From assembly GCF_014696105.1 (NCBI RefSeq), contig NZ_JACJPO010000056.1, forward strand, positions 186,001 to 250,000: a stretch of 64,000 bases of DNA, given 5' to 3'. Below, one piece after another: positions 20,350 through 26,648 of this stretch (its first letter is position 1; each line of letters begins with the position of its first letter). The notes under the pieces were generated by a model. The model saw only the letters and a list, made by a program, of their open reading frames with translations, had not been told where the DNA came from and did no database searches. The stretch comes from Microcoleus sp. FACHB-1515 (GTDB lineage: Bacteria; Cyanobacteriota; Cyanobacteriia; Elainellales; Elainellaceae). Both the position numbers and the translations under genes were made by a program.

Positions 20350-20580
20350 TCAAGGTGTGATTTTGCGATCGATACCGTTTTGGGATGTCGCGATCGAACT
20401 GCACTGCACATTCGGCTCAAACATGACTTCAAATCGATAGGCGAGATCAAGCCGCGACATCAGCAGCGCGAAGTTCTGAGCATCTGTGTATCTGCAAAAA
20501 TACGCAACATCAACGGTCTGACAGTTGGGCAGCAGGCGCACCACCACCCAACGCTTCCGTAAGCGCTCTGCGTAGGTCAT
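20350..20580 (-). CDS. Small conserved-looking protein divergent from the HTH cluster
   Basis: 76 residues from ATG 20580 with GGAG 10 bases upstream; the frame is open further to 20643. The protein is basic at the start (YAERLRKRWVVVRLLP) with aromatic residues following (YFCRYTDAQNFALLM) and has no signal peptide. I do not recognise it. It reads away from the three helix-turn-helix genes across 149 bases that hold a perfect dyad, so it may be regulated by them. Confidence 0.5.
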   Translation of the reverse strand: MTYAERLRKRWVVVRLLPNCQTVDVAYFCRYTDAQNFALLMSRLDLAYRFEVMFEPNVQCSSIATSQNGIDRKITP

Positions 20581-20667
20581 AATAGATTGTCTCCAACTCA
20601 ACGACGGAGCCAAGGCCAGTGCAGAACTTCTCAGGGGACGCACTGGCTTCTGACTTGTTAGAGTTTA

Positions 20668-20688
20668 TCACACAGAAATCTTGTGTGA
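20668..20688. promoter_or_regulatory. Perfect dyad, candidate operator
   Basis: TCACACA (20668-20674) and TGTGTGA (20682-20688) are perfect inverted arms around GAAATCT. It lies in the divergent intergenic region 42 bases before the first TTG of the HTH array. A related half, CTGTGT, recurs a few bases downstream. Autoregulation by the HTH proteins is inferred. Confidence 0.5.
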
Positions 20689-20729
20689 ACAACTAAATTT
20701 TCTGTGTTGCTGCAAGATTTAAGGAAAAG

Positions 20730-20948
20730 TTGACAATTCGCTGGCGATTGAGAGAAGTAATGGCGCGGCAACGCATGACCAACAAGCGTTTGGCCGAGTT
20801 GATGGGCGTTCATCCCAACACAATTTCAAATCTAAAAAATCAAGACAGCTTACCGCACATTGGAGAAACACTAGATGCGCTATGCAAAATTCTCGATTGC
20901 ACACCTGATGATTTAATTGAATACATTCCGGAGAAAGATCCAGATTGA
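20730..20948 (+). CDS. HTH regulator, tandem copy 1 (YozG-like, Cro/CI type)
   Basis: 72 residues starting at TTG 20730, preceded by AAGGA. It consists almost only of a Cro/CI-type helix-turn-helix (HTH_26-like): WRLREVMARQRMTNKRLAEL, then GVHPNTISNLKNQ as turn and recognition helix, then LDALCKILDCTPDDLIEY. Copy 1 and copy 3 share an 83-base identical tract. The stop overlaps the next TTG as TTGA. A small dimeric DNA-binding protein is inferred. Confidence 0.88.
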   Translation: MTIRWRLREVMARQRMTNKRLAELMGVHPNTISNLKNQDSLPHIGETLDALCKILDCTPDDLIEYIPEKDPD

Positions 20949-21251
20949 CAATTCGCTGGCGACTCAGAGAAATCATGGCTCGGCAACGCATGAGCAATAA
21001 GCGTTTAGCTGAATTAGTAGGAGTTCACCCTAACGCGATTTCTCGCTTGAAAAATCAAGACACACTGCCTCAAATCGGCGGAGAAATGCTGGATGCGCTG
21101 TGTCATCACTTGGACTGTACGCCGAACGATCTCATCGAATACACTCCAGAAAAAGGCTCAGATTGACGATTCGCTGGCGATTGAGAGAAGTAATGGCGCG
21201 GCAACGCATGACCAACAAGCGTTTGGCCGAGTTGATGGGCGTTCATCCCAA
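20736..21251 (+). repeat. 83-bp identical tracts in HTH copies 1 and 3
   Basis: Bases 20736-20818 and 21169-21251 are identical over 83 positions, while copy 2 between them differs at many synonymous sites. Outside the tract copies 1 and 3 diverge. Seen directly by comparing the two stretches. Confidence 0.9.
20945..21166 (+). CDS. HTH regulator, tandem copy 2
   Basis: 73 residues from TTG 20945, which overlaps the stop of copy 1 by TTGA. Same fold as copy 1, but codon choice and some residues differ along its length (REIMARQRMSNKRLAELVG). Its recognition helix reads NAISRLKNQ instead of NTISNLKNQ, so DNA specificity could differ. The absence of a separate ribosome binding site and the 4-base overlap indicate coupled translation. 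Confidence 0.87.
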   Translation: MTIRWRLREIMARQRMSNKRLAELVGVHPNAISRLKNQDTLPQIGGEMLDALCHHLDCTPNDLIEYTPEKGSD

Positions 21252-21390
21252 TGCAATTTCGTATCTTAGAAACCAAGATACTTTCCCTCGCATTGGAGAA
21301 GAAACCTTTAATGCACTCTGTAAATTTCTCGACTGCACGCCGTTCGATTTAATTGAATACATTCCAGACGAAGAAAAAGATCTCGATTGA
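21163..21390 (+). CDS. HTH regulator, tandem copy 3
   Basis: 75 residues from TTG 21163, again inside a TTGA overlap with copy 2; an in-frame ATG at 21100 would overlap copy 2 and is not preferred. The first 30 residues are those of copy 1 except the start and recognition-helix edge (NAISYLRNQ). The C-terminal half has diverged and ends in an acidic tail. The three together form one operon of paralogues. The next 257 bases to 21647 hold no gene. Confidence 0.87.
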   Translation: MTIRWRLREVMARQRMTNKRLAELMGVHPNAISYLRNQDTFPRIGEETFNALCKFLDCTPFDLIEYIPDEEKDLD

Positions 21391-24281: not shown

Positions 24282-24635
24282 ATGGAGTTAAAGTTTGAAC
24301 TGAACCCAGTCGAGCTAAATTTTGTGAGTCTCGCCGCTGCAACAAAGGGCATCAACAGCCTAGCTGCGTACATGAAAGCCGCCACGATCGCAGCTTCAGA
24401 ATTGGTGCTTGTCGATCGGCTGGAACAACTTCGGCCACTTGCTGAAAGTTTGCCAGATGCAAAGGCATCTGCTGAAACACTCGAAGCTGCCTTGCAAAGG
24501 GTATGGGCGATTGGTTTACCGGAAATCAGTTTAGAATCTGACACCGCCTTTGATGATACAGATGAATTAATATCACGTCTAAAGGATTTACTTACAGACT
24601 TGCAAGCATTTCTTAGGCAACATCAGGAGGAGTGA
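24282..24635 (+). CDS. Unknown small helical protein
   Basis: 117 residues from ATG 24282 (a TTG lies three codons upstream). No signal peptide or membrane segment. The sequence is mostly Leu/Ala/Glu-rich helix, with an acidic patch (LESDTAFDDTDEL) and a C-terminal helix LKDLLTDLQAFLRQ. I recognise no family. Its end overlaps, by 13 bases on the opposite strand, the end of a ribbon-helix-helix gene. Confidence 0.55.
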   Translation: MELKFELNPVELNFVSLAAATKGINSLAAYMKAATIAASELVLVDRLEQLRPLAESLPDAKASAETLEAALQRVWAIGLPEISLESDTAFDDTDELISRLKDLLTDLQAFLRQHQEE

Positions 24636-24808
24636 TCATCTTCATTCTCAGTTGCCTCTGAGGGTGGCGGATAGCGATCGAGTGTCGCTTGCAGCATCAG
24701 TTGAGACAAAGAAATTGCCCGCGATTTTGCGACCTGCCGCAAATATTTGGCAAGCGGTTTGGGCATCGAGATCATTACCCTGGTGGTTTTGTCGGGGTCG
24801 ATCGGCAT
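24623..24808 (-). CDS. Ribbon-helix-helix-like small protein
   Basis: 61 residues from ATG 24808 (GTG 24814 possible). A strand-like TTRVMISMP is followed by two helices (KPLAKYLRQVAKSRAIS, LSQLMLQATLDRY), the arrangement of CopG/Arc-type DNA-binding domains, then an acidic tail. It may be an antitoxin-like regulator, but no toxin gene is co-directional. Its 3' end overlaps the convergent gene at 24282-24635. Confidence 0.55.
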   Translation of the reverse strand: MPIDPDKTTRVMISMPKPLAKYLRQVAKSRAISLSQLMLQATLDRYPPPSEATENEDDHSS

Positions 24809-24883
24809 GGGCACAAGCGGTTTTCGGTGTGCCTATTCTATTGTGATTGGGCGATCGATGTGAGATGTGAGAGCTTAGGGAAG

Positions 24884-24944: not shown

Positions 24945-26648
24945 TTACAGAATCAGGAAATCTGGCGCGGCGATCGCTCTTGCCCTGTCGATCGTCACAA
25001 ACTGCTCACCTCCGCCCCAGCCGGATGCGGCGCGATTGGCGTTGTAGAACAAGCTGCCGCTGCTGCTGTTGTAGACGATCGCAGCAGTACTCAGGCGGGC
25101 AGCGCGATCGCTGGCAACGATCGCAAAATCGCGGAGGTTCGAGAAACCTGCTCCGGCTCGGCTTTTGAGTGCGGTAAAAGTGCGGCGATCGAGCAAAATT
25201 TTGTCTGTGCCGCTGCTGAAGCCTTGGATCAAATCGAGGCCGATCGCGTCTGGCGCAAAAGCGAGTTCTGTACTGTAGATGAAGCGATCGGCTCCGGCTC
25301 CACCAATCAGGACATCGTTTCCTCCTGCTCCTACCAAGCGATCGCGCCCCTGACCGCCGAGGATGCGATCGTCGCCTTCACCTGCTGACAGTCGATCGTT
25401 GCCCGCGCCGCCGTTGAGTCGATCGAGTCCCGCTTCACCAAACAGCGAGTCGTTGCCCGTTCCGCCTGACAGTGAATCGTTGCCTTCACCGCTGTAGAGA
25501 AAGTCTGTTCCCGCACCGCCGATCAGCGTGTCGTCTCCAACTTCGGCAAACAGTACATCGTTTCCATCTCCACCATCGAGGCGATCGTTTCCCGTTCCGG
25601 CAAACAGCGAGTCGTCTCCCGCTCCGCCGAATAAGCGATCGTCTCCAACTTCGCCAAACAAATTGTCTGCATCTGCGCCGCCATCGAGCGCATCGTTGCC
25701 TTCGCCGCCATAGAGGAAGTCTGCGCCCGTGCCGCCTGCGATCGCGTCATCGTCGGCTTCACCCAGTAGTTCATCGTTGCCGTCGTCTCCGGCGATCGTG
25801 TCACTGCCAACGCCCCCGAAGATTTTGTCGTTGTCGGTTCCGCCGCTGAGCGTGTCGTTGCCAGCTTCGCCGTGCAGTTCGTCTTGGCCTGCATCTGCGG
25901 CGATCGCATCATCGCCCTCGCCGCCGAAGAGTTTGTCGTCTCCTGTGCCGCCGCTGAGCGTGTCATTTCCGGCTTCACCCAGCAGTTCGTCATTGTCTGC
26001 ACCGCCGTCCAGCCTGTCGTTTCCTTCTCCGGCCAGAAGAAAATCTGTACCTGCATCGCCATTGAGGGTATCGTCACCGCCGCCGCTGCTGAGTTTGTCC
26101 GTGCCCTCCCCGCCGCTGAGGATGTCGTTGCCCAGATCGTCGATCAGTTCGTCTGCGCTTTCTCCGCCGCTGAGGATGTCGTTGCCGATTTCGCCATACA
26201 GCGTGTCGTCGCCGCTGCCACCGTCGAGTCGGTCATCGCCCTCGCTGCCGTGTAGCGAGTCGGCATCTGCGCCTCCGTTGAGCGTGTCGCTGCCCGCCTC
26301 GCCATACAGCGTATCAATTCCAGCATCGCCTTCGATCGCGTCATTGCCAATGCCGCCATACAGCGTATCGTTGCCTAAATTGCCAAACAGCAAGTCGTTT
26401 CCGCCGCTGCCATAGAGTTCATCGTTGTCTGCCGTGCCGATGATTTGCTCATCGCGATCGTCTCCGAAAATTGTTGCCAAGTCGTTTGCTCCTGTTGAAA
26501 CTGTTTCGATTTGGCAGAACCCTTCGATCGCCATGCTAGCCAAACAGCTTTTGTCAACAGGTAAAGCAATGACGCTGATTTGTGATGTTTGGAACAAGAG
26601 TTGGTGAATCTTGTCACGTCGCGTCAGGCTGCGGTATGTCAGAATCAC
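24945..26648 (-). CDS. Large RTX calcium-binding protein
   Basis: Up to 567 residues from GTG 26648; ATG 26534 would remove 38 residues and neither start has a good ribosome site. From about residue 60 to 470 the protein is almost entirely GGxGxDxLx nonapeptides (more than 35 units), folding as calcium-bound beta rolls. The end has GADRFIYST and FSSGTDKILLDRRTF, typical of the C-terminal region of secreted RTX proteins. No enzyme domain is visible, so a surface or extracellular-matrix role is likely. No type I secretion genes are in the window. Confidence 0.88.
   Translation of the reverse strand: MILTYRSLTRRDKIHQLLFQTSQISVIALPVDKSCLASMAIEGFCQIETVSTGANDLATIFGDDRDEQIIGTADNDELYGSGGNDLLFGNLGNDTLYGGIGNDAIEGDAGIDTLYGEAGSDTLNGGADADSLHGSEGDDRLDGGSGDDTLYGEIGNDILSGGESADELIDDLGNDILSGGEGTDKLSSGGGDDTLNGDAGTDFLLAGEGNDRLDGGADNDELLGEAGNDTLSGGTGDDKLFGGEGDDAIAADAGQDELHGEAGNDTLSGGTDNDKIFGGVGSDTIAGDDGNDELLGEADDDAIAGGTGADFLYGGEGNDALDGGADADNLFGEVGDDRLFGGAGDDSLFAGTGNDRLDGGDGNDVLFAEVGDDTLIGGAGTDFLYSGEGNDSLSGGTGNDSLFGEAGLDRLNGGAGNDRLSAGEGDDRILGGQGRDRLVGAGGNDVLIGGAGADRFIYSTELAFAPDAIGLDLIQGFSSGTDKILLDRRTFTALKSRAGAGFSNLRDFAIVASDRAARLSTAAIVYNSSSGSLFYNANRAASGWGGGEQFVTIDRARAIAAPDFLIL

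Follow-up and report, generated by a model that had tools for sequence, protein, structure and literature searches.

Three tandem HTH_26 genes with TTG starts and TTGA overlaps face a small gene of an unnamed cyanobacterial family in Microcoleus sp. FACHB-1515

Introduction

One of the closest described systems is CylR2, the cytolysin repressor of Enterococcus faecalis (PDB 1utx, 2xiu). CylR2 consists of an XRE domain alone, about 66 residues long. The divergent promoter that it represses overlaps the promoter of its own gene (PMC3709268). The closest described gene junctions are the ATGA and GTGA overlaps used in termination-reinitiation (PMC10666635, PMC6728339). Among overlapping genes, those sharing four bases form the commonest class, and subunits of complexes are over-represented among genes with short overlaps (PMC10666635). 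In Cyanobacteria fewer than 10% of gene pairs overlap, and overlapping pairs use Shine-Dalgarno (SD) motifs amply (PMC6728339). Here we analyze three tandem helix-turn-helix (HTH) genes of the filamentous cyanobacterium Microcoleus sp. FACHB-1515, joined by TTGA overlaps and transcribed away from a small gene. Literature searches returned no description of such an array.

Results

The window, the whole 64,000-nucleotide stretch of DNA that was analyzed, holds the three genes one after the other (Table 1). The open reading frames agree with the initial sequence-only reading: all three begin with TTG, AAGGA lies 4 bases upstream of the first (20721-20725), and stop (TGA) and next start (TTG) share TTGA at 20945-20948 and 21163-21166. 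SD-like motifs also precede copy 2 (GGAG, 20930-20933) and copy 3 (AAGG, 21153-21156). The units are spaced 215 and 218 bases apart, and the proteins of copies 2 and 3 are 78-79% identical to copy 1. As repeats of one unit at this identity, the copies cannot be due to chance, and they are too diverged for an assembly error. All three match Pfam HTH_26 (PF13443) with 65.2, 60.4 and 54.9 bits (curated cut-off 22 bits) over positions 1-63, the full model. Each is thus a complete Cro/C1-type domain with no other part, and the description of the array as a row of paralogous minimal regulators holds. The array is flanked by the divergent small gene and, on the other side, by a gene for an alanine-rich protein, past which lies an open reading frame that we take to be CTP-synthase-like. 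Elsewhere in the window, on the minus strand, a reading frame rich in GGxGxD-like repeats (24945-26648) resembles, by eye, calcium-binding RTX repeats, and a small one without a Pfam match (24623-24814) reads like a ribbon-helix-helix protein.

Table 1 Features of the array and its divergent neighbor, in positions of the window.
Feature	Positions	Strand	Description
Divergent small gene	20350..20580	-	76 aa, MTYAERLRKRWVVVRLLPN..., predicted alpha-beta-beta-alpha-beta, unnamed cyanobacterial family
Leader hairpin of small gene	20615..20648	-	covarying across relatives, just before ribosome site
Promoter-like element of small gene	20662..20689	-	TTCACA-16-TAAACT, consensus match only
Candidate operator	20668..20688	.	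TCACACA-N7-TGTGTGA, palindrome TCACACAGAAATCTTGTGTGA, contains ACACA-N9-TGT
Possible second operator	20689..20705	.	ACA-N11-TGT; weak, chance-hit probability a few per cent
HTH_26 gene copy 1	20730..20948	+	72 aa, TTG start, residue 34 = N
Near-identical tract, copies 1 and 3	20730..20817 vs 21163-21250	+	1 difference in 88
HTH_26 gene copy 2	20945..21166	+	73 aa, TTG start, residue 34 = R; TTGA overlap with copy 1
HTH_26 gene copy 3	21163..21390	+	75 aa, TTG start, residue 34 = Y; TTGA overlap with copy 2

Among 16 close genes from 11 genomes, which take in the three array copies, the aligned first codon is TTG in 15 and GTG in one, and never ATG. Among more distant relatives, GTG or ATG is the usual codon at this place or close to it, and in three loci (L020, L021, L022) GTG directly follows TTG, so that either codon could be used. 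Codons 2-10 of the close genes, 5′ of an internal ATG, change almost only synonymously (ACA/ACG/ACC; CGC/CGT/CGG; TTG/CTC/CTA/TTA/CTG) or between I and V. Several relatives carry in-frame stops 2-4 codons upstream of the TTG. In the predicted fold, residues 2-5 form a strand, residues 7-13 helix 1 and residues 63-66 a second strand. The synonymous changes, the upstream stops and the predicted strand and first helix place the start at TTG or GTG and bear out the choice of TTG over the internal ATG. The latter, at codon 11, is found in 16/16 genes, but translation from it alone, which would make the TTGA meaningless, is highly improbable, as codons 2-10 change synonymously, encode the predicted strand and the beginning of helix 1, and are needed for the full HTH_26 match.

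Nearly all relatives start with TTG followed by A (TTG ACN), indicating that TTG-A is the ancestral start and that each copy brought its own TTGA. The proposal that the junction had been copied together with the gene therefore holds only in part; the special feature is a repeat unit bounded by TTGAC on either side. For the overlap to form, the upstream copy has to end in ...GAT TGA on the same bases as the next TTG. The end of copy 3 also reads GATTGACGAT, which suggests that TTGAC(A/G)AT may have stood at either end of the ancestral gene, in which case in-register duplication would create exactly such a junction. By this route, read from the sequence, an ancestral single gene would have begun with TTG, retained as a weak start, and tandem duplication between the TTGAC of the start and the TTGAC over the stop would have given units joined by TTGA. 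The immediate TTGACGAT match past the stop of copy 3 fits microhomology at the end of the unit. A remnant of a fourth copy after 21390 was considered and rejected, as the sequence past the stop resembles the unit no more than shuffled sequence does (443/2000). Looking for adjacent HTH_26 genes in other genomes yielded tandem pairs in G027 (gap 78 bases) and G008 (gap 59 bases), two copies each. Tandem copies recur in these two relatives; the TTGA overlap, among the loci compared, occurs only in the genome of the array.

Between copies, dN is 0.08-0.18, compared with a dS of 0.6 (copies 1-3), 2.8 (copies 2-3) or saturation (copies 1-2). All three frames have thus been kept, and these rates indicate purifying selection on each of them. 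Between copies 1 and 3 there is 1 difference in the first 88 bases and there are 13 in the next 44 (Fisher p 1.7e-6), while copies 1 and 2 show 16 and 15 in the same two stretches. The simplest reading of this tract over the first third of the gene is probably gene conversion. A single clade of the three copies is rejected by the protein data (p-AU 0.0096) but not by the DNA data (0.19, 0.29, 0.43).

Residues 28-39 are near-invariant in the 16 close proteins, with the exception of residue 34. This residue shows seven residue types (2.61 bits), far more variation than any other in the recognition helix, and it differs inside all three tandem sets seen (N/R/Y in the array; R/H; S/C). The copies do have different recognition helices, as previously claimed, yet nearly only at this residue. 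HMMER aligns it with Gln37 of the P22 c2 repressor, a residue that contacts bases. Because residue 34 differs, the copies may differ in affinity for the inner operator bases. In loci L016 and L014 an operator-proximal copy with Arg34 occurs together with ACAC-N5-GTGT, a motif present in 0 of 9 other regions; these two cases point to a possible match between residue and operator.

The candidate operator TCACACAGAAATCTTGTGTGA overlaps the promoter-like element of the small gene and has its only exact match in the genome here. A palindrome of such quality is not significant on its own and the evidence lies in its conservation. Of the 11 intergenic regions, 10 have ACACA-N9-TGT and all have ACA-N11-TGT, compared with shuffle expectations of 0.02 and 0.38; the shuffles take no account of the relatedness of the regions. 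The conserved site lies about 89-93 bases from the start of the small gene, its ends and spacing being constant and its inner bases varying among clades. Part of it may be conserved as promoter instead. The second ACA-N11-TGT is found only in this genome and in none of the relatives.

A relative of the small gene faces the HTH gene in 11 of 12 loci, the window included, at a distance of 132-205 bases; L022, the exception, has the regulator without the small gene. Relatives with the HTH gene include Oculatella, Drouetiella, Pegethrix, Elainella and Phormidium tenue FACHB-886. The small-protein family has 12 members in this genome and no match in Pfam, NCBIfam or PADLOC. Its predicted fold has no significant Foldseek match, and ClpS, which gave the best VIA-align rows, scored a Z of 4.5, too low to use. 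Seven of the 12 small genes are divergent within 500 bases of an HTH_26 match, with two further weaker cases; the chance expectation for this pairing is about 0.04, as estimated from match density (18 HTH_26 matches in the genome). Elsewhere, family members are paired with HTH_3, HTH_31 or RHH_5 genes, and some had no visible DNA-binding partner. The RHH_5 (CopG-like) gene stands opposite the small gene in place of an HTH gene in L196, L199 and L201 from other cyanobacteria, so the DNA-binding partner seems exchangeable. No close relative turned up on plasmids, which gave HTH matches below 60% identity and two small-protein matches, or in viral contigs, which gave one distant HTH match; a viral origin was accordingly rejected. 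The defense library gave only generic HTH matches.

Many genes of the small family carry the leader hairpin. The 20 distinct leaders compared form standard pairs in 94% of pair cells, and 6 of 10 pairs have changed on both sides. The covariation score is 0.343, compared with 0.162 for shuffles, none of 500 of which scored as high; sliding the alignment gave 0.078 at most. Of 36 genomes of the order, 20 contain the hairpin according to a covariance model, with up to seven per genome; small-family genes are favored by this model because the ribosome site and start codon are part of it. An Rfam search of the region gave nothing credible, and the hairpin is a candidate for an undescribed cis-acting RNA. 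In one other locus (L074, G017:C165, 1981-4849) three small-family genes follow one another at intervals of about 1.35 kb, and all three have a leader hairpin. Small-protein family and hairpin are more novel than the array itself, and lie outside the 20730-21390 stretch covered by the sequence-only reading.

Discussion

The three genes probably encode minimal XRE repressors of CylR2 type and form the repressor half of a divergent two-gene module, in which they would keep the small gene off. Comparison of the loci shows the gene structure, the TTG starts, purifying selection, the divergent pairing and the conserved site; we infer repression, translational coupling, the dimer partners and the duplication route. 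Three products would be made from one mRNA by termination-reinitiation across the TTGA, and these proteins would bind the ACACA-N9-TGT inverted repeat in the intergenic region. Bare XRE dimers would then repress the divergent small-protein gene, much as CylR2 acts on its divergent promoter, and probably also the array itself. Local repression is the simpler main function once three things absent from the sequence-only reading are considered: the small gene on the other strand, the conservation of the operator, and relatives in which the regulator is single-copy or its copies are spaced. Mixed dimers of the copies are possible and not required by this explanation.

Why the array has three copies may also be explained by dosage or drift, a less likely reading in which redundant duplicates serve to make more of a repressor whose TTG start is weakly translated, their similarity being maintained by gene conversion. 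This is consistent with a conserved TTG or GTG start that is never ATG, with the conversion tract between copies 1 and 3 and with the recurrence of tandem copies in G027 and G008. On the other hand, the recognition residue and the C-terminal half are not the same in the three copies, and a single recent clade is rejected by protein, though not by DNA.

It seems rather unlikely that the array is kept as proposed in the sequence-only reading, with coupled products forming homo- and heterodimers of graded operator specificity. The variability of residue 34, which differs within every tandem set, the enrichment of short overlaps for complex subunits (PMC10666635) and the two adjacent ACA-N11-TGT sites restricted to this genome would all suit such a system. 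However, the site and the divergent gene are also found in single-copy relatives, which shows that a set of copies is dispensable, and the overlap may be a mere by-product of the duplication boundary.

A broader reading, which we regard as doubtful, sees here a widespread undescribed cyanobacterial module of a small alpha-beta-beta-alpha-beta protein, a covarying leader hairpin and an exchangeable HTH or RHH repressor, in which, at this locus, mixed dimers of the coupled paralogues would read two adjacent operators. That the small protein is harmful and the array its transcriptional brake, as in toxin-antitoxin systems, is improbable: the many small-gene copies per genome (12 here) and the choice of HTH or RHH partner recall antitoxins, but the genes are divergent rather than in the one operon of type II systems, the regulators consist of a DNA-binding domain in which no toxin-binding part is apparent, and the small protein gave only two plasmid matches and none in PADLOC, Pfam or NCBIfam.

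With local repression as the preferred reading, the locus presents near-identical, probably co-translated repressors that vary mainly at one recognition residue beside a conserved candidate operator. This makes it a compact test bed for paralogous regulators diverging or staying redundant after duplication. It also leads to an uncharacterized, multi-copy family of cyanobacterial small proteins with a structured mRNA leader.

Among solved structures, the nearest sequences are 3bs3 (E 5.7e-6), an uncharacterized putative DNA-binding protein from Bacteroides fragilis, and P22 c2 (2r1j, 3jxb; E 1.7e-4), a longer phage repressor with a C-terminal dimerization domain. The structural neighbors of the copy model are small XRE proteins, CylR2 included: 1utx and 2xiu are among the best matches and share the fold (E 2.8e-4 to 5.5e-4). 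As in CylR2, the HTH of the predicted model is flanked by N- and C-terminal strands, and an inverted-repeat candidate operator, conserved in 11 of 11 regions, lies in the divergent promoter region. In contrast to the array, CylR2, about 20% identical to its proteins, is a single gene with a membrane partner, CylR1, whereas here three tandem copies face an unrelated small gene as putative target. The TTGA junction has the same four-base geometry as the ATGA and GTGA overlaps, with TGA formed inside the start triplet plus A (PMC10666635, PMC6728339), but it starts with TTG, its partners are tandem paralogues and its coupling is predicted. Overall, the array is an unusual arrangement of fairly ordinary, known parts.
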